Positions 7,130 to 28,167 of a DNA stretch of 37,757 nucleotides are shown piece by piece. Source of the stretch: Chloroflexota bacterium (GTDB taxonomy: Bacteria; Chloroflexota; Anaerolineae; Aggregatilineales; Phototrophicaceae). How positions within the stretch are numbered: position 1 is the first letter of the stretch; the number at the start of each line of letters is the position of its first letter. The notes under the pieces were generated by a model. It worked only from the letters and a program-made list of their open reading frames with translations. It was not told the DNA's origin and did not search any database. Location: assembly GCA_013388735.1 (NCBI GenBank), contig JACAES010000086.1:1-37757 (forward strand), given 5' to 3'. Made by a program: the position numbers and the translations under genes.

Positions 7130-7927
7130 TTACTGCTGCTGGAGTGGGGTCGGCGTGGGAATCGGTTCGCTGATGGTGATGTTCACCATACACGCCGCCT
7201 TTAACGTATTGGTGCTGTCGAAAACCGTGATGCGGAACTGGTACTGCCCCGGCTCGTAAAACGCCGGCACGAACTGTCCCAGCACGCCGGTTTCCATCAC
7301 CGGAAGATTATAGTCGCGCAGCGAGACAAAACTGCCAAAGGTGCTTGGCCCGTTGATCTCGAAGCGGTAAAAAGCGAAGTTGTCGGCACTGGCCGTTCCG
7401 ATCACGTTGATCGGCTCGAACACCAGCATCCCGTTGGCCGGAACTTGCAGCGTCGCGCCGGGCGTGTCACAGCCCGCAATCGGCGCGGGGTTGGGCAGGA
7501 TCGTCCCAACCGGCGTCGGCGTCAGGGTCGGCGTGGCGATCACCTGCACGACCTCTTCTTCCCCGATCTGCACGCTGCCAACATCAATCGGCGCGCCACC
7601 GAAAACCACCTGCGGCGGCGTCGGCGTGTAAAAAGGCTGGTCGGTGATCGGGCTGAAGACCTCCGCAACGTCCATTTGCTCGCGTATCGCCGGCGCGACC
7701 ACGCGCTGAACGCCAAGAATCGCCAGGCTGAATTCGACTACTACGATCAGTGCCGTCAGCGCATTGGCGCGTTCATACCGGAAGATGTCGCGCTCCAGTT
7801 CAAAGTGCGTGGCGCGCAGTTCCCGCTGCGCCCGCGACATCCGCCGCCACGCGAATAACCCGACTACCCCGGCCAGGATATACAGGCCAATCGCAATCTG
7901 TTCGATTAAAAACACCAACGCCGTCAT
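7130..7927 (-). CDS. Two-helix membrane protein with Pro/Thr linker and Ig-like domain, function unknown
   Basis: The 265-residue product has a hydrophobic segment at about 5-27, a short charged helical loop, and a second hydrophobic segment at about 57-78. A long extracytoplasmic region follows, with TPTPP and TPTLTPTPV linkers. After the linkers comes a beta-rich domain (about 155-255, with VIGTASADNFAFYRFEI and PGQYQFRITVFD) that looks like a PKD/Ig-type sandwich with a Cys near each end. The C-terminus is TPTPLQQQ. The start overlaps the stop of the nucleoside phosphorylase (ATGA), and 9 bases separate it from the DUF2520 gene. It is thus embedded in an operon of soluble metabolic enzymes with which it has no evident biochemical link. 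Confidence 0.75.
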   Translation of the reverse strand: MTALVFLIEQIAIGLYILAGVVGLFAWRRMSRAQRELRATHFELERDIFRYERANALTALIVVVEFSLAILGVQRVVAPAIREQMDVAEVFSPITDQPFYTPTPPQVVFGGAPIDVGSVQIGEEEVVQVIATPTLTPTPVGTILPNPAPIAGCDTPGATLQVPANGMLVFEPINVIGTASADNFAFYRFEINGPSTFGSFVSLRDYNLPVMETGVLGQFVPAFYEPGQYQFRITVFDSTNTLKAACMVNITISEPIPTPTPLQQQ

Positions 7928-8763
7928 GCCAGCACCCGTAAAACACCCTTCAGTACGGCGGTCAGCCGGGGAACCAGAATCTTCCCCGCGTCCAGCACTT
8001 CTTCATGGCTGGCTTCCATCCCGGCATCCACCGAGTCAATCGCTTCATTCGTGATGCCGGAAAAAGCCATCACGCGCATCCCGGCGTGCCGCGCCACCAG
8101 CACTTCATGAACAGTAGACATCCCTACGGCGTCTGCACCCAATACCCGCAGCATCCGCACTTCCGCCGGAGTCTCGAAATTCGGCCCGGCCAGACAGACA
8201 TAAACGCCTTCGTGGAGTGGGACGCCGGCTTCCGCCGCTGCCTGTCGTGCCGTCCGACGCAGATCACGATCATAGGTATGGGTCATCCCCACAAAACGTG
8301 GGCCAAAACGCTCGTCATTCGGGCCGACCAGGGGGTTGCCGCCGCCCATGCCGATCCAGTTGATATGATCGTTGAACAGCATCAGATCGCCGACGCGGTA
8401 GGCCGGGTTCAGGCCGCCGGCGGCGTTCGTCAAGATCAACGTTTTAACACCTAGCAGGCACATGATTCGAACCGGAAAAGTGATCGCCTGGGGTGAATAG
8501 CCCTCGTAGAAGTGCGCCCGACCCTGCTGAACGATCACCGGCTGGCCTTCCAGCCGCCCGACCACCAACTGCCCATGATGCCCATGCACCGTAGACTGCG
8601 GCCAGCCTGGGATGGTTTCGTAGGGAATAACCGTGCGTTCGCTCACAGCATCGGCCAGCCCTCCCAGGCCAGAACCAAGCACCAGACCAATTTTCGGTTG
8701 CATCGTGATCTGGTTTCGGATAACCGTGATCGCCTGATCGTAGTCCATTGGTTGTACAACCAT
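7924..8763 (-). CDS. punA: Purine nucleoside phosphorylase, trimeric inosine/guanosine type
   Basis: The enzyme splits purine nucleosides with phosphate to free base and ribose-1-phosphate. The 279 residues show the phosphate-binding GSGLGGL (30-36), VHGHHG (59-64), LTNAAGGLNP, AGPNFETPAE (192-201), GMSTVHE (214-220) and SGITNEA (235-241). Asn239 is at the position that favours 6-oxopurines; methylthioadenosine phosphorylases carry Asp there. Guanosine and inosine are therefore the expected substrates. A perfect TATAAT box lies 36 bases upstream. It is the first gene of the run leading to the Ig-like membrane protein and pan genes. Context elsewhere in the window (Mo hydroxylase, SsnA-like) fits onward catabolism of the released base. 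Confidence 0.95.
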   Translation of the reverse strand: MVVQPMDYDQAITVIRNQITMQPKIGLVLGSGLGGLADAVSERTVIPYETIPGWPQSTVHGHHGQLVVGRLEGQPVIVQQGRAHFYEGYSPQAITFPVRIMCLLGVKTLILTNAAGGLNPAYRVGDLMLFNDHINWIGMGGGNPLVGPNDERFGPRFVGMTHTYDRDLRRTARQAAAEAGVPLHEGVYVCLAGPNFETPAEVRMLRVLGADAVGMSTVHEVLVARHAGMRVMAFSGITNEAIDSVDAGMEASHEEVLDAGKILVPRLTAVLKGVLRVLA

Positions 8764-9588: not shown

Positions 9589-11610
9589 GTGGAGTCCTTC
9601 AAGGATATACAGCGCCAGATTCGCGCGGCGCTGGCAGCTATCGCCCTGGTGATTATCATCGGCGTCATCGGTTATATGGTCATCGAGCAGATGTCGTTAC
9701 TGGATGCCGCCTGGGAAACGGTGGTCACACTTGCAACCGTCGGTTACGGGGACATCGTTCCGCGCACGCCCCAGGGTCGTATCTTCACCATCCTGCTCAT
9801 CATCATGGGTCTGAGCGTTTTCGCCTATGGGTTGCAGGCGTCGGCCACCTTCATCGTCAGCCCGGTCGTGCGCGAAGCGCGCCAGCGGCGGCGTATCCAG
9901 CGTGCGATTAACCGGCTTCAGCACCATTACATCATCTGCGGCGCAGGCGAACTGGTGGATAAAACCGTCAGCTATCTGATCGAAGGGGCTAAACAGCGCC
10001 AGGAAACGCAGCTTGCCCGGCTTTACGAGCCGGTGGATACCGTCCTCGACCGCATTTTTGGCGATGACGCGCGCGGACACTTTCCGCGAATGCGGCGGCG
10101 AGTTCGCCGTCTGTTTTATCTTTTCATCCGTCTGTGGCATCGCGGCGACACGCTGCTGGACGTGGTAGTGGTCGTCACGCCCAGCCATGCCTTTGCCGAT
10201 CATCTGCGCGAAAACGGCCTGATGGCGATCGAAGGCGACCCAACCGAAGACGGCGTATTACGCCGCGCCGGAATCGAACACGCCCACGCCCTGATGGTGA
10301 TGTTGGATGATGACACCGAATCGCTGCTCACCGTCCTTACTGCCCGCGCCCTGGCCCCCGAACTGGACATTACTGCTGCCACTCAGGAAGACCGGGTGAC
10401 GCCCAAGATATTACGTGTCGGCGCGAACGGCGTCATCGCACCCTTTGACACCGCCGGACAGTTTTTGAATAATGCGACTCTGCGCCCGGCAGTCAACGAC
10501 TTTTTCAACGCAGTGCTGTACAGCCCGCGTGTTGATCTGCAAACGACGGCGGTTCACCTGTGGGACGACTCGCCCTGGATCGGACAAACGCTTGGCAGCC
10601 TCAACCTGCGCGAGCGGTTTGAGGCCGGAGTCATCGGCCTGCGGCGGGAAAACGGTGAGTATTTTTATGCCCCCGGCGATTCATACTTGCTCAAGCAAAA
10701 CGAGATTCTCATCACCGTCGCGCCATCCAAATGGATCGCGCCGCTCCAGCAGGCCGCACGCGGAAGTGCGCCCGGCAGGCCGCGTCCGCTGGTATGGCAG
10801 CGGCTTCCGCTTATGGCCGCACCGCATCACGAGCCGCACCCGGTTTACAAATCCCTGTACGACCAGCAGCAAATCGCGGATATAAGCCGGCATTACGTCA
10901 TCTGCGGCTCCGGGCGCGTTGCCCGAAACGCCATCAAAAAGCTCAATCCGCAGCGACCTTTCGTTATCATCAGCGACGACGAAGTTTATGCCGACGACCT
11001 GCGCCAGCAGGGTTTTCGCGTGGTCAGCGGCAGCCCCCTTGATGAGGATACGCTGCGGCAGGCGGGCGTGTCCCGCGCGCTGGCGCTGATGGTCGCGGTC
11101 GAAGACCCGGCAGTCAGCATTCTGGCGGTACTTAACGCGCGGACGTTAAGCCGGGGACTGCTCATCACGGCGGCGGCGCTGACCGACGACATGATCCCCA
11201 AACTCCGGCGCGCCGGTGCTGACCGGGTGATTAATCCGTTTCAGGTGGCGGCGCTGGCGGTGCTGCTGACGGCCACCCGCCCCGCCGTCAGCGATTTTCT
11301 GCAATACGTCATTTTTAACCCGCACGTCGGCGTCGAAACAACCGAGCTTTACATGCAGGACGATTCGCCCTGGATTGGCCGCACAGTGGAGTCCTTACAC
11401 TTGGGGCGCATCTATCGCGCCGGCGTGATCGGCCTGCGCCTGGCCGATGGGCGGTATTTATACGCGCCGCCGGGCAGTCATATCCTGGGGCGGGATGAAG
11501 TGCTGATTGTAGTCACACCGATGCAGTATGCCGACGACCTGCGCCTGGCCGCGCATGGCAGCGAAACCAAACGTCCGCATACTTTAAGACGCGGCTTTGT
11601 GTCCGATTAA
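9589..11610 (+). CDS. Two-helix K+ channel subunit with tandem RCK domains (GsuK-like architecture)
   Basis: The 673-residue protein has TM1 (about 16-34), a pore loop with the canonical TVGYGD filter (50-55) and TM2 (about 66-90). RCK module 1 has a Rossmann GAGELV at 118-123 and a TrkA-C part (about 315-380). RCK module 2 has GSGRVA at 440-445 and a TrkA-C part (about 580-655). Two RCK modules per chain let a tetramer form one eight-domain gating ring, as in GsuK. RCK1 contains an insertion (about 134-186) rich in Arg and aromatic residues between the first and second Rossmann units, not present in RCK2. The start is GTG 9589; an in-frame TGA at 9580 excludes longer forms, and the ribosome site is weak. 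The stop shares TTAA with the convergent gene. Confidence 0.93.
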   Translation: MESFKDIQRQIRAALAAIALVIIIGVIGYMVIEQMSLLDAAWETVVTLATVGYGDIVPRTPQGRIFTILLIIMGLSVFAYGLQASATFIVSPVVREARQRRRIQRAINRLQHHYIICGAGELVDKTVSYLIEGAKQRQETQLARLYEPVDTVLDRIFGDDARGHFPRMRRRVRRLFYLFIRLWHRGDTLLDVVVVVTPSHAFADHLRENGLMAIEGDPTEDGVLRRAGIEHAHALMVMLDDDTESLLTVLTARALAPELDITAATQEDRVTPKILRVGANGVIAPFDTAGQFLNNATLRPAVNDFFNAVLYSPRVDLQTTAVHLWDDSPWIGQTLGSLNLRERFEAGVIGLRRENGEYFYAPGDSYLLKQNEILITVAPSKWIAPLQQAARGSAPGRPRPLVWQRLPLMAAPHHEPHPVYKSLYDQQQIADISRHYVICGSGRVARNAIKKLNPQRPFVIISDDEVYADDLRQQGFRVVSGSPLDEDTLRQAGVSRALALMVAVEDPAVSILAVLNARTLSRGLLITAAALTDDMIPKLRRAGADRVINPFQVAALAVLLTATRPAVSDFLQYVIFNPHVGVETTELYMQDDSPWIGRTVESLHLGRIYRAGVIGLRLADGRYLYAPPGSHILGRDEVLIVVTPMQYADDLRLAAHGSETKRPHTLRRGFVSD

Positions 11611-12956
11611 CCAATCCCGGCGCTGCGACGTTCGTCGCGGTAGTCCTGCGGCGTATCAATGTCGCGCAGCACACTGTCGGTATCCACGTTCACGTAACCG
11701 ATACGATCTTTATATTTATCAATCACGTCGCGCGGCACGCCATCCGGCGGCAGGTTCAGGATGTCCTGCCAGTAGCGCCGGTCAATCAGGATAGGATGGC
11801 CGCGCCGCATCTGGTAGCTGGGCGCAATGATGTCTCCCGCGCCTTCAGCATAGGCCGTCAAAACCTGAGCGATCACGCGCGGTTGGATGCGCGGCTGGTC
11901 CCCCAGCACCACCAACACCGCCGAAATATGCGGCGGCATGGCGCGCAGCCCAACCTTGAGCGATGACAGCATTTCGCCGGTGGCATAGTCCGGGTTGTGA
12001 ACGGCCTCCGCCCCCATCCGAACAGCCAGCGAATACACATCCGGGCTTCGGTGGCCGGTGACGACGGTGACGCGCGGCACTTTCGCCAGGAAAAGCTGTT
12101 CCAGAATATGCTCGATGATGGTTTTACGTCCTTCCCAGGGCAGCAGCACTTTCGGCTGCCCCATCCGGCGCGACATGCCCGCCGCCAGCACGACCGCCCC
12201 TACCTGCCGCTGAACCTCGTGAATCGGCTCAGCCCCGCGCACTGAACCCAGCGCCACGCCGTAAACGCGCGGCGAACGCAGGATGAACTGGGCGATCATC
12301 CGCGCCCGCCCCCGCAGATAGCCCTGCGCCGGAACCTGATTGAGCAGCGCCACCACCCGCACTTTATCCGGCACACCCTTCAGGCCAAGCGTTTCATCAC
12401 GAATAACCTGCGCCACCCAGGGCGATTTGACGCGGTTGCCGATGCCAAACCCGTAACGCTTGTCTATCGCCTCGGCGTTGTAAACGTGTTCTTCGTCCAG
12501 CGGTTGGCCGAGGACGCTCAACGAAGCCACCGGCACGACCAGCGTGGTCTCCGCCGGGATAACCGGCTCGTGCGCTTTCGGCGCTTTCAATGGCAGCCCG
12601 CGCGCCCCATCAGCTTCGATCAACAGCACATCCGAGTCAATCGAATCGAGCAGGCGGGGGATTTGTTCACAGGTCGCGCCGTAAACTTTGTTCTGGCGGA
12701 TTTCATCGTACAGGAATACAAAACGATGGTCACTCAGCGCCAGCGACACCGCCGACATGGACGTATCCAGCCGCGCGGCATATGGCACCAGTCCCAACTG
12801 GTCATCGCTGATACGGGTGGTCGTGGTTGCCAACACGCGCAGACCGGCTTCGGCCAGTTCGTAGCCAAGTGCGATCATGGTGGTGGTTTTGCCGCCCGCG
12901 CCAACGAGCGCCACCACATCGCCAGGATTGATGTCAAATGCGCGTTGGAGCTTCAT
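11607..12956 (-). CDS. Fusion of YqeC-like protein and MocA-like molybdopterin nucleotidyltransferase
   Basis: Residues 1 to about 250 match YqeC, a putative accessory protein of selenium-dependent molybdenum hydroxylases, with a P-loop-like GAGGKTT (19-25), TTTTRI and the LLIEADGARGLPLK segment (from 111). Residues 251-449 are a MobA/MocA-type nucleotidyltransferase with LAAGMSRRMGQPK (257-269), VVLGDQPRI and a GHPILIDR loop. Such enzymes attach CMP (MocA) or GMP to molybdopterin for hydroxylases of the xanthine dehydrogenase family. The two are usually separate genes, so the fusion directly links them. It is the last gene of the operon, overlapping the EF2563 gene by 23 bases. Its stop codon overlaps the convergent channel stop. 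Confidence 0.9.
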   Translation of the reverse strand: MKLQRAFDINPGDVVALVGAGGKTTTMIALGYELAEAGLRVLATTTTRISDDQLGLVPYAARLDTSMSAVSLALSDHRFVFLYDEIRQNKVYGATCEQIPRLLDSIDSDVLLIEADGARGLPLKAPKAHEPVIPAETTLVVPVASLSVLGQPLDEEHVYNAEAIDKRYGFGIGNRVKSPWVAQVIRDETLGLKGVPDKVRVVALLNQVPAQGYLRGRARMIAQFILRSPRVYGVALGSVRGAEPIHEVQRQVGAVVLAAGMSRRMGQPKVLLPWEGRKTIIEHILEQLFLAKVPRVTVVTGHRSPDVYSLAVRMGAEAVHNPDYATGEMLSSLKVGLRAMPPHISAVLVVLGDQPRIQPRVIAQVLTAYAEGAGDIIAPSYQMRRGHPILIDRRYWQDILNLPPDGVPRDVIDKYKDRIGYVNVDTDSVLRDIDTPQDYRDERRSAGIG

Positions 12957-13782
12957 AACCCGTCAAATAAGGGCGCACCTGGGGCGCGGCCAGGACTGCT
13001 TCCAGCACGCCGCCGCCCACTGCCAGCGATTTATCCGAAATGGTGAAACAATTCTCGCGGCGAATGCGCGGGTCGAGATCGCCGATTTTCGCGCCTGCTT
13101 CGACCCGCACCTGTTCGTGAATCAGCCCACGCAGCACACCGGTGAAAGCGGCCACAACCGACTGCCCGTTCACCGACGCAATCACCTGGCCGGCCTCGAT
13201 GATTTCACCGATCTGCCGGTATGCCTGAACATAACCTGCCGACGGCGCACGCAGCACCCGCGAATGGCTCTGTCCCGCCGTGATACCCGGTTCGCCGGTA
13301 TCCGCTTCAGCCGCCCCCTGCCAGATCACCCGCCCCAGGTCATGCCCGCGATTGGTTTCGATCACCGCGTGGCAGTCCGTCCCCGCCGTAAAACCGGGGC
13401 CGAGCGCGACCACCAGCGGCGCGTCATCCAGGCGCGTACCCAGGTTTTTTTTCGCCATGCGCCCATCCAGGACGACCGCTGGAGATAAGCGCCTGATGGC
13501 CTGCCCGTCCGGGTCAGCCAGCACCGGCACAACGCCGGACGCAAGCATCGCACCAACGGCATGATCGGTCTCGGCGCGTTGAGCGGATACGCCGTCTATC
13601 TCCATCACGCCCTCATAAATCGCCGAGCCATAACACACGGCGCGCCGCACCAGCAGCGGTTGTGCCAGTTCGGTGACAATCACCGGAAAACCTGCGCGGT
13701 GCAGGCGATAAATCGCGCCGCTGGCGAGGTCGCCGCCGCCGCGCACCAGCACGAGCGCGCGCCTAAAAAACACCGATGCCAT
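12934..13782 (-). CDS. EF2563-family molybdenum hydroxylase accessory protein (YqeB-like)
   Basis: The 282-residue protein has the N-terminal VRGGGDLASGAIYRL motif (13-27) and the LVVALGPGFTAG and ADTGEPG segments typical of the EF2563 family. Members co-occur with XdhC, YqeC and, in some genomes, SelD in the proposed labile-selenium molybdenum hydroxylase system. The C-terminal part (about 180-250) contains a biotinyl/lipoyl-like hammerhead with GYVQAYRQIGEIIEAGQVIASVNG. It probably helps mature or sulfurate/selenate the Mo cofactor; the exact reaction is unknown. It overlaps both neighbours by about 20 bases, so translation is coupled. It is soluble with no signal peptide. Confidence 0.88.
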   Translation of the reverse strand: MASVFFRRALVLVRGGGDLASGAIYRLHRAGFPVIVTELAQPLLVRRAVCYGSAIYEGVMEIDGVSAQRAETDHAVGAMLASGVVPVLADPDGQAIRRLSPAVVLDGRMAKKNLGTRLDDAPLVVALGPGFTAGTDCHAVIETNRGHDLGRVIWQGAAEADTGEPGITAGQSHSRVLRAPSAGYVQAYRQIGEIIEAGQVIASVNGQSVVAAFTGVLRGLIHEQVRVEAGAKIGDLDPRIRRENCFTISDKSLAVGGGVLEAVLAAPQVRPYLTGYEAPTRI

Positions 13783-16012
13783 GGTCCCGCAGCGCGGCCA
13801 CCACTCGGTCTGGCGTGAGTGGAATACCGTCTATCCAGATGCCGGTCGCATCAAATACCGCCGCCGCGATAGCCCCCGCCAGCGGCAGATAAGGCATTTC
13901 TCCCATGCCACGCGCCCCCCAGGGGCCGATGGGATCGGCATATTCGAGGATGACCGACTTCACCTCATCCGGCACATCCAGCACGGTCGGAATGAGATAG
14001 GTTGACAGATAGGGATTGAGGATGCGGCCTTCCTCGGTGACAAGATTTTCCATGATGGCATAACCCTGCGCCTGCACGACCGCGCCTTCGATCTGCCCCT
14101 GCACCAACTGTGGGTTCACCGCCCGGCCAACATCGTCGGCACATACCACGCGCGCCAACCGGATATGCCCCGTTTCGACATCCACTTCGACTTCGACCGC
14201 CTGCGCCACATAACCATAAGCGAAGTTCGGCTCCGAACGCCCGGTTTCCGGGTCATAGGGGGTGGTCTTTGGCGGACGATACTGGTGGGTCGCCACTGCC
14301 GGACGTTCCTCATTCTTCCAACGCTCCAGCGCCAGCGCCGCCGCCCCCCGGATGGCATTACCCGCCATAAACGTCATGCGCGAAGCTGAGGCGCTGCCCG
14401 ACGTGAGCGTTTCGGCGGTATCATGGCTGATGAGCCGCACCTTCGACAGCGACACGCCGGTCGCTTCGGCGGCCATCTGGGCCATTACTGTGTGCGCCCC
14501 CTGCCCCACTTCTGCCCCGGCATGGCGTACAACAACTTCTTCGATTTCGGCATCTCCATGCAGTTCAATCGTCGCCCAGCTTTGTTCCGGGAAGCCGAAG
14601 CTAAACCCAACATTTTTGAACCCGGCGGCGAACCCAATCCCGCGCCGGATGGCCGGGTCGGTCGGCTGCGGCGTCGGCGGGCGCTGCCAGCCATCGCCGT
14701 TGCGCTTCCAGTAGCTTTGTTCCGCGCACTGCTCAACCACCTGGCCGATGCTCACGCCGGGCGGTAGCGGCGTACCGACCGAAAGCAGACTGCCTTCCCG
14801 CAGGACGTTCCTCACGCGAATCTCGACCGGATCCATGCCCAGAGCTTGAGCCAGTTTGTTCATCTGGCCTTCGGCGGCAAAAGCGCCTTGCGGCCCGCCA
14901 AAACCGCGAAACGCGCCGGTGAGTAAATTATTGGTGTGAACAGCGTAGGTATCCACACGAATATTCGGAATTTCATACGGCCCGGTGACGCACAGGTTGG
15001 CGTTACCCATCACTTTGGTCGAAGTGTAGTTGTAAGGCCCAGCATCACCGATGACGGTCGCTTCTGCCGCGACGATTTTGCCATCCTTTGTCGCGCCCCA
15101 TTTGGCACGGATCACAGTTGGATGGCGCTTATGATGGTAAAGAATAGATTCCTCTCGACTCCACAAAATTTTGACCGGGCGGCGCAGTTTCCAGGCCGCC
15201 AGCGCCAGGACGATCTGTACCGACATATCCTCGCGCCCGCCGAATGCCCCGCCGATGGCCGGGTAAATCACCCGCACCTGATCTTCCGGCAGGTTCAGCG
15301 CATGGCAGATCTGCTCCTGGTCTTCATGCACCCACTGGCCGGCGACAATCACCGTCACACGCCCCTGCTCATCCATATAACCCAGGCCGGCTTCGGGCTG
15401 AAGGTAGGCATGTTCCTGATAACCGGTATGATATTCACCCTCGACAACAACATCGGCCAGCGCCCAACCCGCCGCCATGTCGCCCTTACGGATTTTATAG
15501 TGGCACAGGATGTTGCCGGGCCGGTTGGCGTGAATTTGCGGCGCGTCCGCCTGCATGGCTTCCAGTGGATCAAACACCGCCGGCAAATCTTCGTAGGTCA
15601 CTTCGATCAGCCGGGCTGCTTCTGCGGCAGTCGCTTCGGTTTCGGCCACCACGACGGCGATACAATCGGCATAACAGCGCGCTACGTCGGCATCGGCCAC
15701 CTGGCTGTTACTGCCCGGCCCGATCAGAACCGGCTGATCTTTGATGACCAGGCCGTATTCGTTCTGCGGCACGTCTCTGGCGGTAAAAACCCCGACGACT
15801 CCCGGCAGCGCCTCTGCCCTGCTGGTGTCCACCGCCAGCACGCGCGCATGGGCGCGGTCGCTAAATCGCAGTTTCATCCACAGTTGGCCGTCCAGGTTAA
15901 TGTCACCGGGGTAGGGCGTTTCACCCGTAACTTTACCGACTGCATCAATACGCTGAACGGTTTGTCCAAGAACGATGGTTTTTTTTGCTGACACCGTGAT
16001 TTCTTCCTTCAT
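13763..16012 (-). CDS. Molybdopterin-binding catalytic subunit of a xanthine dehydrogenase-type hydroxylase
   Basis: The 749 residues form an N-terminal 'hammerhead' domain (VTGETPYPGDI, 28-38) and the long Mo-cofactor region. This carries GGAFGGRE (254-261), GAFRGFGGPQG (366-376), VGQGAHTV (502-509) and the C-terminal ARGMGEMPYLP (700-710). Glu705 aligns with the catalytic Glu of this family. Arg369 aligns with the purine-binding Arg of bovine xanthine oxidase, and CO dehydrogenase-type motifs are absent, so an aromatic heterocycle such as a purine is the likely substrate; this is inference. Electrons would pass to the 2Fe-2S and FAD protein encoded at 18131-19561. It overlaps the preceding gene by ATGA and the EF2563 gene by 20 bases. 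Confidence 0.95.
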   Translation of the reverse strand: MKEEITVSAKKTIVLGQTVQRIDAVGKVTGETPYPGDINLDGQLWMKLRFSDRAHARVLAVDTSRAEALPGVVGVFTARDVPQNEYGLVIKDQPVLIGPGSNSQVADADVARCYADCIAVVVAETEATAAEAARLIEVTYEDLPAVFDPLEAMQADAPQIHANRPGNILCHYKIRKGDMAAGWALADVVVEGEYHTGYQEHAYLQPEAGLGYMDEQGRVTVIVAGQWVHEDQEQICHALNLPEDQVRVIYPAIGGAFGGREDMSVQIVLALAAWKLRRPVKILWSREESILYHHKRHPTVIRAKWGATKDGKIVAAEATVIGDAGPYNYTSTKVMGNANLCVTGPYEIPNIRVDTYAVHTNNLLTGAFRGFGGPQGAFAAEGQMNKLAQALGMDPVEIRVRNVLREGSLLSVGTPLPPGVSIGQVVEQCAEQSYWKRNGDGWQRPPTPQPTDPAIRRGIGFAAGFKNVGFSFGFPEQSWATIELHGDAEIEEVVVRHAGAEVGQGAHTVMAQMAAEATGVSLSKVRLISHDTAETLTSGSASASRMTFMAGNAIRGAAALALERWKNEERPAVATHQYRPPKTTPYDPETGRSEPNFAYGYVAQAVEVEVDVETGHIRLARVVCADDVGRAVNPQLVQGQIEGAVVQAQGYAIMENLVTEEGRILNPYLSTYLIPTVLDVPDEVKSVILEYADPIGPWGARGMGEMPYLPLAGAIAAAVFDATGIWIDGIPLTPDRVVAALRDHGIGVF

Positions 16013-17763
16013 GCCTCTTCAAGCGCCCGACCGTTAATCGGCTGCCCGGCGCGGCGTCTCTCATTGGCAAAGATGCGCCGCAGGATGGCGATGGCGGTTG
16101 CGTAAGTCGGGTCAATGCCCGCATAACTCAGGCTGCCCGCGCCCAGATTGCGTCCTTTGCTCATCGGCGTATCCGAAGCGTAATACAAAAATCCCGTCTC
16201 GAACGGCACGCCGTAAAGGTTGACGATTTCGTTGTAGGGATGCCGCTGCGGACGAAACGCCTCGTAGACCGCCGATAGATACGGCCCGGCTTCCATCTCA
16301 ACAATCGTATAACCTTCGCGGTAAAAGACGCTCATATAGCGCGGGTTTTGCAGGAATGTCCCCCGCGCGCTGACCGCCTTCTGATTATCCAGCACCGTGC
16401 CGTATCTCAGATAAGGCGCGACATCCTGAGCCGAAAAACAGTTGTTGAACAGATAGGTGTTCTGCGAATGCTCATCGTGAACCACGTTCGGGATCATCAC
16501 ATCGCCCACGCGCGCATTCAGTGAAGCCGCCTTGCCCATGATGTACACGCCCAGCAGTTCATCCACCCGCTCCGTTACACGGTTCAGGATTTCATAACTC
16601 GCCAGCCCCAGCGGATAATCAATGTTGATAATCAGCGCATCGCTCCCCACCAGCTCGATATCCAGCCCGTCGCGCAAGCGTGTATCGAGCCAGTCCGGGC
16701 GCAGTTTGTTGATTTCAATCACCTGGGTTTCGATGTCGAAACCATGTCTGCTGGGGACGCGATGAATGCCAATGGTTTTTTCGTCTGCCGCCAGTGATGA
16801 GCGCGCCGTCTCACCATGATCGGCCAGGTACTTCCGCAGCACATAATACAGGAAGTTATCCAGGCTTTTCAGATCGTCGCTGTCTCGAATAGCCTGGTAC
16901 TCCGCTGCCAGATCGCCCTGATTGAAGTTCTGGATATATTCGATCAGATGGCGTTCCTCGCGCCGGGCAAAACCAGTGAGCATGTTCACCAGCGAGTGCG
17001 TGTTGCTGGACACAAAGTAGACCGGGCTGCCTTCCAAACTGACCGTATCCCGCAGATGATCGCGCAGTTCACCCCACCAGTGCGCCGTGCCGCGCCGGTA
17101 GTCTGCCAGCGACCCGGCCAGCATTCGCAGACCGATGTCCTTGGCGCCGGCAGCAATCTTGTGGAGCGTCTCAACAAAACGCTCACCCCACACCACTTCC
17201 AACCGGCGCAGATCATCCCGGCTTATCCGCAGCGCCGCCGCCAGCTGCACGGTTTCAGCCTCCTGGAGCGGCGCGCCGCGTTCGGGGTTCTGGCTCAAAA
17301 ACAGCTTCGGGGCTTCATCCTGGAGCAAAAAGTGCAGTTTGTTCCATTCAATCTGGTAGGCGGTCAGCGTCGGCACCAGGTCGTCAATATCTGACCGGCT
17401 GGCGATGAACACGGCCAGGGTGTGATCGCCATCAAAATGCACCCGGCGGCGGCGGCCTGGCGCGTTCACGCGCGGCCATTCCGCGATAGCGTAGCCTGCC
17501 GTCACAAATGACCGCTCAACCTGGCCGATCAAAACCTGCTCGACATCCAGCATACAGTCCGGCAGGCGCAGGCTGGCGTACACCAGTGCCGATATATCCG
17601 GCTCTGGCGCGAGCGCGCCGACGTGCAGCGACGACTCCATCGCCATGTGCGTTTCTTCCAGTGTTTCGATGCGAATCGAATGCGTCGAACGCAGCAGCGA
17701 ATAATACGTCCGCATAAACAGTTCGATTTCTTCGCTGCCGGTCTTCGGCACGGTGCGATCCAT
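16009..17763 (-). CDS. Uncharacterised 584-residue protein with nucleoside phosphorylase-like C-terminal region
   Basis: I cannot name the family with certainty. The first 330 residues are mainly helical and contain WNKLHFLL, FVSSNTHSLVNMLTGFARREERHLIEY and a Trp/His-rich ADYRRGTAHWWGELRDHL patch. Residues 365-570 alternate strands and helices with GKAASLNARVGDVMIPN (410-426) and TIVEMEAGPYLSAVYE (486-501). The GDVMIPN and VEMEA pattern resembles the PNP/UDP phosphorylase superfamily, where the Met-Glu pair binds the ribose. No signal peptide or membrane segment is present. Its stop overlaps the Mo-subunit start (ATGA), and only TAG separates it from the upstream small membrane protein. A role in supplying or modifying the purine substrate, or hydrolysing a nucleoside, is possible but unproven. 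Confidence 0.85.
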   Translation of the reverse strand: MDRTVPKTGSEEIELFMRTYYSLLRSTHSIRIETLEETHMAMESSLHVGALAPEPDISALVYASLRLPDCMLDVEQVLIGQVERSFVTAGYAIAEWPRVNAPGRRRRVHFDGDHTLAVFIASRSDIDDLVPTLTAYQIEWNKLHFLLQDEAPKLFLSQNPERGAPLQEAETVQLAAALRISRDDLRRLEVVWGERFVETLHKIAAGAKDIGLRMLAGSLADYRRGTAHWWGELRDHLRDTVSLEGSPVYFVSSNTHSLVNMLTGFARREERHLIEYIQNFNQGDLAAEYQAIRDSDDLKSLDNFLYYVLRKYLADHGETARSSLAADEKTIGIHRVPSRHGFDIETQVIEINKLRPDWLDTRLRDGLDIELVGSDALIINIDYPLGLASYEILNRVTERVDELLGVYIMGKAASLNARVGDVMIPNVVHDEHSQNTYLFNNCFSAQDVAPYLRYGTVLDNQKAVSARGTFLQNPRYMSVFYREGYTIVEMEAGPYLSAVYEAFRPQRHPYNEIVNLYGVPFETGFLYYASDTPMSKGRNLGAGSLSYAGIDPTYATAIAILRRIFANERRRAGQPINGRALEEA

Positions 17764-17766
17764 CTA

Positions 17767-18138
17767 TCAGCGATCCTTCATCTGTTTGTTGATCCGCCGC
17801 TGAAGTTCTTTTTTGGCTTTGATGTTCCGGCGCAGTTGTTCGCGTTCTTTAGCCAGGTCTTTCTCTCGAACATCCATCGCCTGCTTTGGCCTGAACAGCG
17901 CGACAACCAGGCTGGAAAACATCAACAGGATGACGAACATCACACCGGTGGCGATCCAGTTCCAGGTGGTGCGGGGAACTTCCGGTGACGGAAAACCCCG
18001 GACGATATTGGAAGCATCCATCCAGTCAATCACAATCGGCCCCAACGCCCAGGACAAAACGCCCAGCGAAAGCGCCAGGATGAATCCGATCAACGGCCAG
18101 AATGCGCGGTTTTTACCGCCGCCTCTGCTGCTAGACAT
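17767..18138 (-). CDS. Small two-helix membrane protein with basic coiled-coil tail
   Basis: The 123-residue product has a short basic N-terminus, TM1 at about 13-35, a roughly 23-residue loop with Pro and Trp, TM2 at about 58-82, and a C-terminal helix (about 88-123) very rich in Lys, Arg and Glu that should form a coiled coil. No family is recognised. The start ATG (18138) overlaps the stop of the FAD/2Fe-2S gene by 8 bases and it ends in tandem stops TGATAG just before the next ATG. It could anchor the hydroxylase complex or its partner protein to the membrane; this is inferred from operon position only. Confidence 0.78.
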
Positions 18139-19561
18139 GCCTCACCTCGCTGTTCTTTTTTGCGGCTTCTTCAACGGCCTGCACGATTTTGTAGTATCCC
18201 GTACACCGGCACAGGTTGCCGGTCATGCTCTGCTGAATCTGCTCGCGGGTCGGCTGCGGGAATTCTTCCAGCAGCTTAACCCCGGCCATCAGAAATCCCG
18301 GCGTGCAGTATCCACACTGCACCGCGCCTTCTTCGACGAACGCTTGCTGCACCGGATGAAGCTGGCCGTCCTGGCGCAGCCCTTCGACGGTGACGATCTG
18401 CGCGCCGTGCGCACGCGGGGCCGGCACCATGCAGGCCATCACTGCCGCACCATCCAGAAAGACGGTGCAGGCCCCACATTCCCCCTCGGCGCAGCCCTCT
18501 TTCGTCCCCGGCAGTCCAGCATCCTCCCGCAGAAAACGCAGCAGCGTTTTGTCAAAACCGGTCGAAACCTTCACCGGCTGCCCATTAACGGTCGTTTCAA
18601 TCAGCACGCCCGCCGTGTGTTCCAACGGCTGCGGCAGCCCCGCCTTCACTTTACCCTGTTCTGCGCCCCATAACATGACCGGGGACTGCGGCCAGCTCTC
18701 GCGTTCCCGACCGGCAGCCAGCGCGCGCAATGCCCGCGAAACCAGCACACGTACCATCTCGACCCGGTAATCCGCCGAGCCGCGAATATCATCAATCGGC
18801 GATGGCGTGGCCGCTGCCAGCCGCGCTGCTTCCCGGATGCGCTCCGGCGTCAGCGGACTGCCCAGCAGCGCATGTTCCGCCACCGGCACGCGAATGATCG
18901 TCGGCGCGACGCTGCCCAGCGTGATGGCCGCCTGCGATACTTTTTCCCCATCGAAGGCCAGCACGATCGCTACGTTCACCACCGAAATGGCTTGCGCGCG
19001 CCGCAAACCAAGCTTGATGAATATCCCGCGTTCGCTGCGCGCCAGCCCCGGAAAGGTGATGGCCGTCAGCATCTCGTCGGCACGCATGACGGTTTTCCGC
19101 ACGCCGGTATAAAACTGCGCCAGCGGTACGGTGCGTTCGCCTTCCAACGAGGCCAGCGTCACCTCCCCGCCCAGCGCCATCAGCGGCGTGATGGTATCGT
19201 TAGCCGGCGAGGCCGTAATCAGGTTTCCGGCCACCGTCGCCCGGTTGCGAATCTGCGGCGCGCCCACCTCCCAGCAGGCTTGCGCCAGCGGCAGGCCGCG
19301 CTCAACCACCAGCGGGCTGCCGACCACCTGATTATGCGTGACCAGCGGCCCCAGGCGGATCTGGTCGCCATGCTGCCTGATGCTGTCCAGCCCCGGCACG
19401 CGGCTGATGTCTACCAGGACATCCACGCCGGGGCGAACGTGCCGCTCCAATTCCAGAATAATGTCCGTCCCACCGGCGATGATTCGCGCCCGTTCACGGA
19501 ATTTTGCCAGCAGTTCAAGCGCCTCGGTCAGCGATGTTACGCTGTAGTAGTGAGTCCACAT
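18131..19561 (-). CDS. Fused FAD-binding and 2Fe-2S subunit of the molybdenum hydroxylase
   Basis: Residues 1 to about 290 are the FAD-binding domain of CoxM/XdhB type, with IIAGGTDI (27-34) and [17 protein letters not shown] (107-123) contacting FAD. A linker to about 320 leads into the CoxS/XdhC-type 2Fe-2S domain. The plant-type cluster ligands are Cys357, 362, 365 and 377; the helical-domain cluster ligands are Cys416, 419, 451 and 453, so both clusters are intact. The order FAD then Fe-S is the reverse of eukaryotic xanthine dehydrogenase, where Fe-S precedes FAD. It is the first gene of the operon running to 11607. Electron flow would be Mo, 2Fe-2S, 2Fe-2S, FAD, then NAD or another acceptor. 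Confidence 0.95.
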
Positions 19562-19833: not shown

Positions 19834-20466
19834 TTAAGTTTGCGGGAGATCTACGTCCAGCACCGTCACCGGATTAATGTTGACGATCACCGTGCCGCCG
19901 CGCTCGGTGCGGGTGATCGTGCGCCGGTCATAGGTGTGAACATGACCATGCACCATATAGCGCGGGCGATACCAGTCTAAAAAATTCAGCAGCGCCTTAA
20001 ACCCGCGATGAGGCAGGTCTTCCGCGTCATGGATGCCCAGCGGCGGCGCGTGCGTCACCAGCACGTCCAGCCTGCGGCCCTGCCAGCGGCGCAGTCGCAG
20101 CCGCAGTCCGGCGTTAAACACCAGGCGGAACATTTCGCTTTCGGAATACTGGATCGGGGCGCGGCTGTAACGCGGGCTGCCTTCCAGGCCAAAAAACGTC
20201 AGCCCGTTAAACTCGACCAGCCGGTTATGCAGGTCTTCGCCACCAGGGGGGGTCTGGCTGTAGCCTTCATCGTGGTTGCCGCGCACGTAAAACAGCGGCA
20301 CATTCAGTACCGAGGTGATGAATTCCAGATATACAGCCGGTAAATCGCCGCAGCTAATAATCAACTCGACATCATCGTACTGCCGGCGCAGATTGACGGC
20401 GCTTTCCATCTGCGGCATCACGGTGTCGCTCACGCATAAAATTTTCACCGCCAGACCTATAATCAA
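19834..20466 (-). CDS. Calcineurin-like metallophosphoesterase with altered first motif
   Basis: The 210-residue cytoplasmic protein carries the family blocks GD (40-41), GNHDE (63-67), THAPP (138-142) and HGHVHTY (173-179), which bind two metals. The first block, normally DxH, reads SDTV (13-16): the Asp is present but Val replaces His. Some small phosphoesterase subfamilies share this change, so it may still be active, perhaps with different metal binding. The ATG at 20466 is used; a GTG at 20448 giving VKILCVSD is an alternative with a weak AGG ribosome site. It lies 73 bases downstream of xdhC. The substrate is unknown; phosphodiester or phosphomonoester hydrolysis is expected. Confidence 0.87.
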   Translation of the reverse strand: MIIGLAVKILCVSDTVMPQMESAVNLRRQYDDVELIISCGDLPAVYLEFITSVLNVPLFYVRGNHDEGYSQTPPGGEDLHNRLVEFNGLTFFGLEGSPRYSRAPIQYSESEMFRLVFNAGLRLRLRRWQGRRLDVLVTHAPPLGIHDAEDLPHRGFKALLNFLDWYRPRYMVHGHVHTYDRRTITRTERGGTVIVNINPVTVLDVDLPQT

Positions 20467-20539: not shown

Positions 20540-21376
20540 TCAGCCAGTGCCGCCCGCCTCGGCCACGTCGCCCATCCATTTCATCGCTGCGCCGGTGCCG
20601 CCCCGCTGCACCAGGATGATCTGCGCCAGGATGCTGATGGCGATTTCGTGCGGCGTTTCGGCGTTCAGTTCCAGGCCAATCGGCGCGTACACCCGCTTGA
20701 TCTGTTCTTCGCTCAGGCCACGCTCTTCTTTCAGCGCCTTGACCGCCAGTGCCCAGCGGCGGCGGCTGCCGATCAGGCCGATGTAAGCCGCCTCAGTTTG
20801 CAGCAGCGCCGGGATCAGATCGAGGTCAACCGGCAGACCGCGCGTCACGGCAGCCACGTAGGTCTGCGGCGTGATCTCAACGCAGGTCGTGATTTCGCCC
20901 GGTTTGCACACAATATATCCGTCCATACCGGGCAGATAGTCCGGGTTACAGAACGCCTCGCGGTCATCGCTGACGATCACCCGGTAGCCGACCCACTTGC
21001 CCAGTTCCGCCAGCGCCCTACCCACATGCCCACCGCCGATCACCAGCAGCGCCGGCGATACTCCAACCGGCTCGATGAACACCTGCACCGTGCCGCCGCA
21101 TACGCCGGGGTCGCCCGCGCCCAGGTCATTCAGGTTATAACGCGGCAGGCGCGGCTGGCCGTCTTTCATTGCTTCCAATGCCGCCAGAACGACCAACTGC
21201 TCCATCGCGCCCCCGCCGACCGTCCCGACAATCGAACCATCAGCCCGCACCAGCATTTTGCTGCCGGCGCGGCGCGGCACCGACCCCTGTGTGCTGACGA
21301 CCGTCGCCAGCGCAACCGGATGCCCTTTGGCCTGGGCTTCGACGAGTGCCTCAAAAACGGCGCGATTTTCACTCAT
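20540..21376 (-). CDS. xdhC: XdhC/CoxI-family molybdenum hydroxylase maturation protein
   Basis: XdhC binds the molybdenum cofactor, protects its sulfurated form and inserts it into xanthine dehydrogenase-type apoenzymes. The 278 residues show the N-terminal GSVPRRAGSKMLV and GTVGGGAMEQ motifs (31-60), a CGG segment (93-95), and a C-terminal Rossmann domain with VIGGGHVGRAL (112-122), IGLIGSRRR and the YAPIGLEL stretch. Length is normal. It is encoded on the same strand upstream of the hydroxylase operon, separated by the phosphoesterase and the palindromic element. The start overlaps the stop of the upstream membrane glycosyltransferase gene (ATGA), an odd partner functionally. Confidence 0.94.
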   Translation of the reverse strand: MSENRAVFEALVEAQAKGHPVALATVVSTQGSVPRRAGSKMLVRADGSIVGTVGGGAMEQLVVLAALEAMKDGQPRLPRYNLNDLGAGDPGVCGGTVQVFIEPVGVSPALLVIGGGHVGRALAELGKWVGYRVIVSDDREAFCNPDYLPGMDGYIVCKPGEITTCVEITPQTYVAAVTRGLPVDLDLIPALLQTEAAYIGLIGSRRRWALAVKALKEERGLSEEQIKRVYAPIGLELNAETPHEIAISILAQIILVQRGGTGAAMKWMGDVAEAGGTG

Positions 21377-24018
21377 TTGATCTCAACTTCCCCGATGAAC
21401 AGCCGCCTATATTCGTCTCCACCCGCATCCGGCATCAAACGCTCGAACGTGGCCGGGTCATAAAAGCCGATGGCGACCGGATACTTTCCTGGCGGCACAT
21501 CCTTCACATTCACCCAGATTATGTCACGAAGCAGGCCCGGTAGCCAGTTCCCCGGCGGCAGCGCCCCCCCGCCGGGGCGGATATCCGTCTGCGCGACCGG
21601 CGGCTGGTTCACGTCCTCGTACAGATGCACAAAAGCGATGTAATCCCCCGTCGCGCTGCCGTCGGTGTACCATTCAAAATTGACGCCCAACTGTTCCGCA
21701 CCGGGCTGATAACTGATGTCCGCCGCCGCCAGCACAATCGCACCTGACTGGTAGGCAGCGATCTGTGTTTCTGGCCGGGATTCAATTTTCGGCGGGCCGT
21801 AAAGCCAGTGATAAGCCGGCATATAGAAGCCATTGGCAACATGCGCCACAATGCGAATACTGACAGTATTAGACGTCAAGCGGTTTCCCCAGGCTATAGC
21901 CTGGGGAATCACGGTTGCCACTTCAAGCCACCGGCCCGGAATCGCCGGAATCCAACGTGTTCCCACAAGTTTACCGTTGGCATAAATGTCGAGCGTTCCG
22001 GCAGCAGCAGGCTGTAACCGCGTCACAAGCGTGACATCCGATGCGCTTCCCGAATCCGAATAGCCGGTATATAAATCAAAGGTTTCTTCGCCGCCGATTC
22101 GCCTCACCCCATCTACCTGAATACAGTTTTCGACGATGCAGCTTACATACCCCCGTTCATGAACCTCGGTAGGAAACCCGGCCAGCGGCTTGCTGTCGTG
22201 CCAGTGGTAGTTTGTTCGCGCTTCATCTTTCAAATCGGCGACATTGACAGAACTCAATGGAAGTTCATTAAGTCCATAAGGGATAAACGTGGAAGGCTGA
22301 AGTGATTTATCCGTATACTGGAAAGACGACGTTTCCCATTCCGGCTTATAAATCCCCTGGTAGGCCGCCGCCAGCGCGACGTTGTAACGATCATCCAGCG
22401 GCACGGTAAATTCGGCCAGCGGCGCGCCATAGATGCGCGTGTCGGCCACCATGCTCAGGCCGAAGCCATGTCCCGGCCCGTAGGCGGCGATGTAGTCCGG
22501 TCGTCTACCCATTAAAAACTCGGCCACTGCGCCGGGGCCATTACGCCAGTAATCCGCTGCGCCGGGGGTCGTCAACCCGACTATATCAATCGTCGTGCGT
22601 CCACCTTCGTAACGCAGCAGGCCGGTATCATGCACCGCGACGACGGCGTCCGGCGGCGTGTTGGCTTGCAGCCAGCGCGCCATTTGCAGCGGTTGAAAAT
22701 AGACGTAAGACACGTTCAGCGCGTAATGATGCAGGAAAGCCGGCCACGTCCACAGGGATGAGGCCAGTAGAATGATACTCAAAACACCCGCAAGTACCTG
22801 GAACACTTGCCTTCGATTTTGACTAAGGACTAAGGACTGAGGACTGAGGACTGCTATTCCCCACCCCGCCAGCGGGAACAGCAGCGCCATAAACGGCATC
22901 TGGTAGCGTTTGAAGTGCCAGAAGGCCGTATCCAGCGTGGACACCGCCAGCGTGCCAACCACCAGCCAGCCGAGGATGACGACAGCGACGCGAACGTGGC
23001 CCCGCAGGGACAAGGCATGTCTCGCCCCTGTTAACCATACTAACCCCACCGCCGCCAGCACAAGCATCCCTGGCAGAAGATACATTCCTTCGCGCGGGCT
23101 GATGCCGGTGAAAAACTCGCCCCACATGCGCGCGAAGTTTTCTGTGATGCGCCGGACGGCCTCGCCCCATTCAAACGGCACGATGCCGAACACCGACTTG
23201 GCTGCATTGCCCGATGCCACCGCCGAGCCGGTGAAAATCAGATTCACCACCGGCTGCACGCCTATCGCCAGCAGCGGCAGCAGCAGGAACACACTATGTC
23301 GCGTCCGTATGAATCGCCACTGTCGGAAGCACATTTGTTCCCCTCGCCCTAAGGGGGAGGGGCTAGGGGTGAGGGCAGCCGCCCCCACCGCCAGCAGCGT
23401 CAGAATCGCGCCCTCCGGTCTTATCAAGGCCAACAGCGTCGCCATAACCACCAGCAGCCACAAATGCCGCAATTCCCCTCTCCCTGAGGGAGAGAGGGCA
23501 AGGGTGAGGGCATACACCGTCCACAGACTAAACAGCACAACCAGCCCGGTTTCCATGCCGCTCATCGAGTGCCACGATACCGCGCCGTTGAGCGTAAATA
23601 TGGGAATAAGCGCAAAGGATAACCACTGCGGCGCACCACCGGCCCACACCAGCCGGTACACCAGCCAGGCCGAACCGGCCAGCGCCAGCGCACCGATGCC
23701 CATCGCCCACAGGCCGAGGTTCAGCCCTTGAAAACCAAGCCGATAACCGACCGCCAGCAGGTAGGGGTACAGAAAGCTGGTTGCGCCGGAAGACGGCGGC
23801 AGACCGGGGTTATAGACGTAAGGCTGCCCGGCAGCAATCTGTTTAGCATACTGGAAGTGAATGTAAACATCATCGAGGGGCATCACCAACTCGCCGCGTC
23901 CCGCCGACAGGCTGGCAAAACTGTAGGCCAGAAACACCGCCCCGGCCAGCGCGCAGCAGAACGTCCAGACAAGCAGCGGGCGTCCCCGCCAGACGTCCGG
24001 TGAAAGTGATTGAGTCAT
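21373..24018 (-). CDS. Large GT-C-like membrane glycosyltransferase with repeat-derived loops
   Basis: The 881-residue product has about ten membrane helices in its first 420 residues and a long extracytoplasmic C-terminal region. An acidic loop after TM1 (PLDDVYIHFQYAKQIA, near residues 48-63) matches the Asp motif of GT-C enzymes acting on polyprenyl-phosphate sugars. The C-terminal part (about 430-881) is beta-rich, with an HDTGLLRYEGGRTTIDIVGL segment often seen in bacterial membrane mannosyltransferase-like proteins. At least five short repeats of different families lie within the frame (21885, 22821, 23005, 23340, 23475). They encode loop sequences such as ALSPSGRGE and LTPSPSPLGRGE and do not break the frame. 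Specific sugar and acceptor are unknown. Confidence 0.8.
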   Translation of the reverse strand: MTQSLSPDVWRGRPLLVWTFCCALAGAVFLAYSFASLSAGRGELVMPLDDVYIHFQYAKQIAAGQPYVYNPGLPPSSGATSFLYPYLLAVGYRLGFQGLNLGLWAMGIGALALAGSAWLVYRLVWAGGAPQWLSFALIPIFTLNGAVSWHSMSGMETGLVVLFSLWTVYALTLALSPSGRGELRHLWLLVVMATLLALIRPEGAILTLLAVGAAALTPSPSPLGRGEQMCFRQWRFIRTRHSVFLLLPLLAIGVQPVVNLIFTGSAVASGNAAKSVFGIVPFEWGEAVRRITENFARMWGEFFTGISPREGMYLLPGMLVLAAVGLVWLTGARHALSLRGHVRVAVVILGWLVVGTLAVSTLDTAFWHFKRYQMPFMALLFPLAGWGIAVLSPQSLVLSQNRRQVFQVLAGVLSIILLASSLWTWPAFLHHYALNVSYVYFQPLQMARWLQANTPPDAVVAVHDTGLLRYEGGRTTIDIVGLTTPGAADYWRNGPGAVAEFLMGRRPDYIAAYGPGHGFGLSMVADTRIYGAPLAEFTVPLDDRYNVALAAAYQGIYKPEWETSSFQYTDKSLQPSTFIPYGLNELPLSSVNVADLKDEARTNYHWHDSKPLAGFPTEVHERGYVSCIVENCIQVDGVRRIGGEETFDLYTGYSDSGSASDVTLVTRLQPAAAGTLDIYANGKLVGTRWIPAIPGRWLEVATVIPQAIAWGNRLTSNTVSIRIVAHVANGFYMPAYHWLYGPPKIESRPETQIAAYQSGAIVLAAADISYQPGAEQLGVNFEWYTDGSATGDYIAFVHLYEDVNQPPVAQTDIRPGGGALPPGNWLPGLLRDIIWVNVKDVPPGKYPVAIGFYDPATFERLMPDAGGDEYRRLFIGEVEIK
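21885..21908. repeat. 24-bp perfect palindrome inside the glycosyltransferase gene
   Basis: The half-site TTCCCCAGGCTA is followed directly by its exact reverse complement. It encodes PQAIAWG in a C-terminal loop of the host protein. A zero-loop perfect palindrome of this length is unlikely by chance and looks like a dispersed repeat unit. Confidence 0.75.
22821..22853. repeat. Tandem 7-bp repeats (GACTRAG) inside the glycosyltransferase gene
   Basis: GACTAAG twice, GACTGAG twice, then GACTG run without gaps. The unit is not a multiple of three, yet the frame stays open and gives an SPQSLVLSQ-like loop between two membrane helices. Confidence 0.85.
23005..23030. repeat. 26-bp imperfect palindrome inside the glycosyltransferase gene
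   Basis: CAGGGACAAGGCA is followed by TGTCTCGCCCCTG; ten Watson-Crick pairs, one G-T pair and two mismatches form the stem. It encodes part of the loop TGARHALSLRG between membrane helices. Confidence 0.55.
23340..23375. repeat. GC-rich 36-bp repeat, copy 1, inside the glycosyltransferase gene
   Basis: The repeat starts CCCCTCGCCCTAAGGG and ends GGGGTGAGGG, with self-complementary ends (CCCTC and GAGGG). On the coding strand it gives LTPSPSPLGRGE, a signature often produced when this type of repeat lies in coding sequence. It closely matches copy 2 at 23475-23510. Confidence 0.8.
23475..23510. repeat. GC-rich 36-bp repeat, copy 2, inside the glycosyltransferase gene
   Basis: It begins CCCCTCTCCCTGAGGG and ends AGGGTGAGGG, in the same orientation as copy 1 and 135 bases from it. 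It encodes LALSPSGRGE in the loop between two membrane helices. Confidence 0.8.
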
Positions 24019-25711: not shown

Positions 25712-25799
25712 AATGATTAGCGCCATCTGCCGGCTGATGCACAGCAGCGCGCTACTCCTCCTTTCGTTAATTGGGGGTAAGGGCGCAGATTCAAATCCC

Positions 25800-27364: not shown

Positions 27365-27394
27365 CCATCGTGTATCATCAAACCCTGCCGCCGT

Positions 27395-28165: not shown

Positions 28166-28167
28166 AG

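Follow-up and report, generated by a model that had tools for sequence, protein, structure and literature searches.

The window analysed here is a 37,757-nucleotide contig from a Chloroflexota bacterium of the family Phototrophicaceae (JACAES010000086.1, assembly GCA_013388735.1). It contains a molybdenum hydroxylase operon in which the gene for a protein of the uncharacterised Pfam family DUF6909 lies between the genes for the FAD/[2Fe-2S] subunit and the catalytic molybdenum subunit. The DUF6909 protein is predicted to have the fold of the NP-I superfamily of nucleoside phosphorylases and nucleosidases, residues resembling the active site of those enzymes are invariant in the family, and the gene is recurrently linked to an island of purine genes. 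We put at about even the chances that DUF6909 represents a new family with the NP-I fold, recruited into a known pathway and probably acting as a purine N-glycosidase. The operon consists of six minus-strand open reading frames (ORFs) that overlap or touch between positions 11607 and 19561 of the window:

18131-19561, minus strand: electron-transfer subunit with FAD and [2Fe-2S] domains, FAD domain first (PF00941, PF03450, PF00111, PF01799), hereafter the FAD-FeS subunit
17767-18138, minus strand: small protein of 123 residues with a charged tail and a pair of hydrophobic helices that are probably transmembrane (hydropathy)
16009-17763, minus strand: DUF6909 (PF21850) protein of 584 residues (Pfam E 9.8e-222)
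13763-16012, minus strand: molybdopterin-binding catalytic (Mo) subunit of the xanthine dehydrogenase family (PF01315, PF02738, PF20256)
12934-13782, minus strand: YqeB/EF2563-type maturation protein (TIGR03309, 348 bits; cut-off 220)
11607-12956, minus strand: YqeC-MocA fusion, molybdenum cofactor maturation (TIGR03172, 158 bits; cut-off 73)

A first-pass annotation of the window had described the same six overlapping or nearly touching genes, and all six are found at these positions with agreeing domain calls. It had put the 584-residue protein between two electron-transfer subunits, whereas one of the flanking genes encodes the catalytic Mo subunit, and it had called the protein unknown; although uncharacterised, the protein belongs to an established Pfam family. 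A literature search found no paper that names DUF6909 or PF21850.

The relationship to NP-I enzymes emerges from structure prediction. An AlphaFold2 model of the DUF6909 protein, built from 59 aligned sequences, has a pLDDT of 87.6 and a pTM of 0.87, and a Foldseek search of the PDB with this model returned 569 matches with E ≤ 1e-3 (best E 7.5e-7). The best 50 of these 569 are all purine nucleoside phosphorylases (PNPs), MTA/SAH nucleosidases or phosphorylases, uridine phosphorylases, or AMP nucleosidases, which bears out the phosphorylase-type resemblance proposed earlier. In the model, the NP-I-like part begins near residue 247 and contains a helical insertion at approximately residues 257-330, after the first core strand. 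It is therefore larger than the C-terminal third to which the resemblance had been assigned, and the preceding part (approximately residues 1-245), which had been described as a long helical N-terminus, is of mixed α/β composition. When residues 1-250 were modelled separately (pLDDT 89.9), Foldseek gave no PDB match at E ≤ 1e-3. On the strength of the model, DUF6909 very probably has the NP-I α/β fold.

Several results count against this assignment. The Foldseek matches have modest TM-scores (0.32-0.63 by target; 0.22-0.29 by query, which carries the additional N-terminal domain and the insertion). The PNP_UDP_1 family (PF01048) was not reported for any of 59 DUF6909 members at E ≤ 10, a comparison of DUF6909 with PDB sequences gave no NP-I match, and hhalign returned probabilities of ≤2% for DUF6909 against PNP, AMN, MTAN, UDP, and DeoD (the partners being E. 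coli AMN, MTN, UDP, and DeoD and 31 PNP sequences). Pfam and NCBIfam scans of the DUF6909 protein likewise offered no route to NP-I. The lone PDB profile match, to IpgB2, has an E value of 0.41, which is at chance level, and was rejected. Because the sequence methods show no link, the assignment rests on the predicted fold together with motifs. DUF6909 thus shares its predicted fold with the NP-I superfamily (PNP, MTAN, uridine phosphorylase, and AMP nucleosidase) but differs from it in having no detectable sequence or profile similarity, an additional N-terminal domain without a PDB match, and a helical insertion after the first core strand.

The motifs GDVMIPN and VEMEA, singled out in the first-pass annotation, are present in the protein. 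Met490, Glu491, Ser530, Asp531, Gly420, Asp421, and Arg104 through Arg106 are among the positions that are invariant in 116 aligned DUF6909 rows, so that the conserved candidate active site that had been anticipated is found. (Alignments A1 and A2 comprise the window sequence with 58 and 55 sequences, respectively, of the 80 best loci; L048 and L055, each with an in-frame stop, were excluded from the alignments and the tree.) In NP-I enzymes, a Met-Glu pair holds the ribose and an Asp acts as the general acid. Met490-Glu491 and Ser530-Asp531 of DUF6909 were matched to these residues by motif and strand order, not by superposed coordinates, and the G-D, M-E, and S-D motifs occur in the identical order in E. 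coli MTAN. A pattern composed after the DUF6909 protein had been viewed ('GD[hydrophobic]2 ... [DE]ME[ASTG] ... SD') matches 92 of 96 DUF6909 ORFs and none of 1186 other ORFs at 101 loci; of the known E. coli NP-I enzymes mtn, amn, udp, and deoD, it matches only mtn. These counts show that the motif combination is not due to chance; they do not show that it defines the NP-I fold.

We favor, by some margin over even chances, a catalytic role for DUF6909. Alternatively, the NP-I scaffold could serve a regulator that binds nucleotides without catalysis, a proposal consistent with the protein's large extra N-terminal domain, with the invariant triple arginine (Arg104-Arg106) in that domain, and with the lack of sequence similarity to catalytic families. 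However, a mere scaffold need not keep the catalytic-looking residues that are invariant across all 116 rows, and we consider a regulatory function improbable.

DUF6909 is present in 100 of 301 genomes of the phylum, with a single match in 95 of those 100. Gene order was examined at 100 DUF6909 loci, made up of the best 80 of 327 relatives and 20 more distant ones, a choice by which the adjacency counts favor close relatives. A FAD-FeS gene lies within 3 kb upstream of DUF6909 at 51 loci, a Mo gene within 3 kb downstream at 47, and both at 46. At least 2 kb of upstream sequence is available at 89 loci (48 with the FAD-FeS gene) and at least 2.5 kb of downstream sequence at 80 (41 with the Mo gene); two pairs of loci, L062 and L084 as well as L030 and L158 (genome G240), are each the same contig and are not independent. 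The expectation that homologues would lie near molybdenum hydroxylase genes thus holds for part of the family, both flanking subunits being present at 46 of the 100 loci. Of the two adverse outcomes named in advance, a protein without a phosphorylase fold and homologues that are never near hydroxylase genes, neither was obtained. Two operon-bearing records labelled 'Bacteroidetes' (L008) and 'Pleurocapsa' (L020) fall within Chloroflexota clades and are probably mislabelled bins.

In a tree of 99 rows (the window and 98 of the 100 loci, built by a quick method, with 16 rows unlabelled owing to short flanks), the operon label requires 6 changes, compared with a mean of 25.7 for shuffled labels. 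The linkage between DUF6909 and the operon therefore either goes back a long way or arose on a few occasions, and it has been lost in places. DUF6909 is a recurrent but optional addition to the hydroxylase operon.

The operon is itself embedded in a larger set of minus-strand genes concerned with purines and with coenzyme F420:

28865-30208, minus strand: SsnA aminohydrolase (TIGR03314, 501 bits; cut-off 455.5)
25097-28839, minus strand: CofC, CofD, FbiB-C-like nitroreductase, CofE, and NADPH-F420 reductase (TIGR03552, TIGR01819, TIGR01916, and TIGR01915 over cut-off)
24067-25077, minus strand: luciferase-family oxidoreductase, probably F420-dependent, a candidate yanthine reductase (PF00296)
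20540-21376, minus strand: XdhC-type maturation factor (PF13478, PF02625)
19834-20466, minus strand: metallophosphoesterase, just upstream of the operon (PF00149)
7924-8763, minus strand: ordinary purine nucleoside phosphorylase, downstream of the operon (PRK08202 and PNPH models over cut-off; PF01048)

These genes accompany DUF6909 where it is part of the operon. The metallophosphoesterase gene occurs at 34 of 52 operon loci and at none of the 48 other DUF6909 loci, and the PNP gene at 24 of 52 and 1 of 48, respectively. Of 35 operon loci whose upstream sequence reaches at least 7.5 kb, 25 have the PF00296 gene, as against 0 of 48 other loci, 29 of which have at least 6.9 kb upstream. The luciferase-family protein passes the cut-off of no NCBIfam model among the 25 shown, and TIGR03553 is below its cut-off among the F420 genes.

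In the portion of PMC12507026 consulted, SsnA serves to mark the reductive uric acid pathway, Chloroflexota clusters have a putative F420-dependent PF00296 enzyme instead of YgfK or UacX, and the use of F420 in anaerobic urate breakdown by Chloroflexota is a prediction only (PMC12507026, 2025). The window has in common with those clusters SsnA, an XDH-family PF01315 subunit, and a PF00296 enzyme in one island (PMC12507026, same portion). It differs from them in several respects: DUF6909 is absent from the text of PMC12507026, the two-helix protein does not appear in the portion consulted, and in the genome of the window YgeY is over cut-off on another contig (G000:C91), outside the window, while YgeX (TIGR03528) is not over cut-off in this genome, which is 94% complete. 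We conclude that the operon is not an unknown system and that the window fits a Chloroflexota F420-using variant of the reductive purine/urate cluster. The earlier description of an undescribed module was thus too strong; what the window presents is a recognisable cluster of this kind with an optional, uncharacterised DUF6909 gene.

The hydroxylase also carries signs of the selenium-dependent type. YqeB, YqeC, and YgfJ families have been proposed as accessory proteins of selenium-dependent molybdenum hydroxylases, with SsnA in the same clusters (Haft and Self, 2008; PMC2276186, in the part consulted). Like those loci, the island has TIGR03309, TIGR03172, and SsnA, and the genome has selD; it differs in that selD is on another contig and is not an orphan and in that the MocA half of the YqeC-MocA fusion scores below the TIGR03310 cut-off (167 bits; cut-off 186). 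The selD gene (G000:C121:11521-12456) is over cut-off and, like that of many other genomes in the phylum, contains a single in-frame TGA, and its product therefore likely contains selenocysteine; selA is also present in the genome, so selD is not orphaned. Both the selenium-type hydroxylase marker YqeB (TIGR03309) and a genomic SelD are thus in place, and selenium itself is putative. The Mo subunit scores below the cut-off of all 13 NCBIfam models listed, and because of this we infer the hydroxylase substrate; the nearest PDB sequences are those of 4-hydroxybenzoyl-CoA reductase, nicotinate dehydrogenase, aldehyde oxidoreductase, and xanthine oxidase.

Where DUF6909 has consistent neighbours, they belong to a purine pathway, and a purine nucleoside or nucleotide is therefore its likely substrate. 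The supply of a base to the hydroxylase would be the simplest reason for the linkage. An ordinary phosphorylase is already encoded in the window, a hint that any activity of DUF6909 would be on another substrate.

A number of observations weigh against such a dedicated role. None of the 20 distant DUF6909 loci has a FAD-FeS or Mo gene nearby. Among 199 genomes sampled evenly across the class, 116 have the FAD-FeS subunit, 59 have DUF6909, 41 have both, and at least 12 have the two within 5 kb (query E ≤ 1e-100, with at most eight candidates scored per genome, so that paralogues may be counted). DUF6909 is therefore seen beside the FAD-FeS gene in at least 12 of the 59 genomes that have it, a lower bound in that contig ends split pairs and nine plus-strand DUF6909 hits start less than 3 kb from a contig start, and it is unseen next to the FAD-FeS gene in 104 of the 116 genomes carrying that subunit. 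It was in view at none of 20 loci inspected out of these 104, and 18 of the 59 DUF6909 genomes have no FAD-FeS match at E ≤ 1e-100. The hydroxylase, in short, usually occurs without DUF6909. Within the family of the window, genome G472 has PNP, YqeC-MocA, Mo, FAD-FeS, PF00296, and F420 genes in one stretch, with SsnA in the same stretch just below its cut-off, and nothing in that genome matches DUF6909. In G456 most of the island is present, SsnA does not pass its cut-off, and DUF6909 is missing. DUF6909 was also rejected as a marker of genomes with YqeB, since it occurs in 17 of 55 genomes with YqeB over cut-off and 83 of 246 others (Fisher p 0.75, 301 genomes). The lack of a YgeX match over cut-off, noted above, belongs with these points.

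Many of these observations would be expected if DUF6909 were a general nucleoside or nucleotide enzyme of salvage or repair whose place in the operon is a matter of clade-level convenience. Its occurrence in a third of the phylum's sampled genomes, nearly always as a single match, fits this explanation, as do the weak association with the FAD-FeS subunit (present in 41 of 59 genomes with DUF6909 and 75 of 140 without; p 0.04, uncorrected for kinship), the lack of co-occurrence with YqeB, and the islands of G472 and G456. The co-occurrence with SsnA is similarly weak (48 of 59 against 98 of 140 over the SsnA cut-off, counted by eye), and selD, over cut-off in 240 of 301 phylum genomes, does not discriminate.

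The neighbours of DUF6909 outside the operon, which vary by group and are unrelated, are again in keeping with a general enzyme. SelD is directly upstream at five loci of one BLAST cluster (L061, L076, L077, L176, and L177; the two checked are over the SelD cut-off). A hydrogenase maturation protease is near DUF6909 at four Bellilinea-like loci, two of which are the same contig; a TIR-like gene is beside it at six and a nitroreductase at five Thermoflexus-like loci. A translin-like gene occurs at four loci and a YdcF-like gene at three; the names TIR, translin, and YdcF are our presumptive readings of these sequences, and NCBIfam lists the translin-like neighbour as a haloacid dehalogenase superfamily protein, below cut-off. 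A creatinase/M24-peptidase-like gene lies downstream of DUF6909 at four of the five SelD-linked loci. A general enzyme does not readily account for the recurrence of the linkage on several Anaerolineae branches, mostly in the same gene order and along with the purine island, and we regard this alternative as possible but rather unlikely.

Some of the same neighbours bear on a role on the cofactor side, in which DUF6909 would process a nucleotide tied to molybdopterin cytosine dinucleotide or to selenium insertion. The operon includes YqeB and YqeC-MocA, SelD adjoins DUF6909 at the five loci just mentioned, and in G240 (L030/L158) YqeC-MocA immediately follows DUF6909 with no Mo gene between them. 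Set against this, 38 of 55 genomes with YqeB over cut-off lack DUF6909, and 83 of 100 genomes with DUF6909 lack YqeB over cut-off; like the regulatory function, a cofactor role appears improbable to us.

The earlier proposal that DUF6909 feeds the hydroxylase is plausible, but it is weakened by the 104 genomes in which DUF6909 is unseen beside the FAD-FeS gene and by the ordinary PNP in the window. We judge the supply of purine to the hydroxylase to have at best an even prospect, and perhaps a distinctly poorer one.

The slot between the FAD-FeS and DUF6909 genes is also conserved. At 42 of 51 operon loci, it holds a small ORF whose product has two or three hydrophobic helices, a count that omits L072 (393 residues) and L080 (223 residues, four helices) from the 44 slot ORFs with at least two helices. 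At L072 and L080 the slot holds these larger multi-helix ORFs, and there is too little space for the small protein at L068 and at a group of six sister loci, L033-L038. In the window, the small protein (17767-18138) matches no Pfam family over cut-off. It had been proposed as a membrane partner of the DUF6909 protein, and although it is kept in its slot, it is not specific to DUF6909: a small protein of this kind follows the FAD-FeS gene without adjacent DUF6909 at 8 of 20 hydroxylase loci, with one further doubtful case. Because of this it is not a companion of DUF6909 alone, and it more likely belongs to the hydroxylase. The idea of a regular DUF6909 companion was rejected, given that only 5 of 45 non-operon loci have any upstream ORF with at least two helices, none of them clearly alike; an apparent case of the small protein with DUF6909 and without FAD-FeS (L030/L158) was set aside as the contig stops approximately 200 bases upstream of the small gene.

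CO dehydrogenase is recruited to the membrane by a CoxG-type protein. The window resembles that system in having a small membrane protein next to a molybdenum hydroxylase and differs in that its small protein has no family match and only a putative anchoring role. The small protein probably tethers the hydroxylase to the membrane.

Three further genes of the window can be placed less exactly. An 881-residue protein at 21373-24018 has no Pfam or NCBIfam family over cut-off and no PDB match, is rich in hydrophobic stretches, and is a probable multi-helix membrane protein; related sequence occurs at 22 of 52 operon loci. On the opposite strand, a two-lobed protein (9589-11610) that we take to resemble a TrkA-type potassium-channel protein has a gene whose 3′ end shares four bases with the end of the YqeC-MocA gene, and sequence related to it occurs at 18 of 52 operon loci. 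A carbamate kinase gene, a possible member of the island, lies further upstream at 35782-36732 (PRK12352 over cut-off); the E. coli uricolytic cluster, as described in the portion of PMC12507026 consulted, includes a carbamate kinase. The five F420 synthesis and reduction genes stand between the putative F420-dependent enzyme and SsnA.

Together, these results suggest the following scheme. The FAD-FeS and Mo subunits would form a purine hydroxylase of the xanthine dehydrogenase family. YqeB, YqeC-MocA, and XdhC would mature this enzyme, the two-helix protein would probably keep it at the membrane, and SsnA and the luciferase-family enzyme would work downstream of it. DUF6909 most likely would break, or make, the N-glycosidic bond of a purine nucleoside or nucleotide, with Glu491 and Met490 holding the ribose and Asp531 protonating the leaving base. 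The DUF6909 gene is set between those of the small protein and the Mo subunit in some Anaerolineae lineages, where its product would supply a purine base to the pathway. A more elaborate version, in which DUF6909 is a new NP-I family acting on nucleotides, the N-terminal triple arginine holds the phosphate, and the purine is handed to a membrane-tethered selenium/molybdenum hydroxylase within one assembly, seems to us a long shot, scarcely better placed than the cofactor or regulatory alternatives.

An N-glycosidase activity, as proposed here, is a function that can be tested for a strongly conserved but uncharacterised family present in a third of the genomes sampled from the phylum. DUF6909 may thus provide a candidate entry enzyme, and the two-helix protein a candidate membrane partner, for F420-dependent anaerobic urate breakdown in Chloroflexota.

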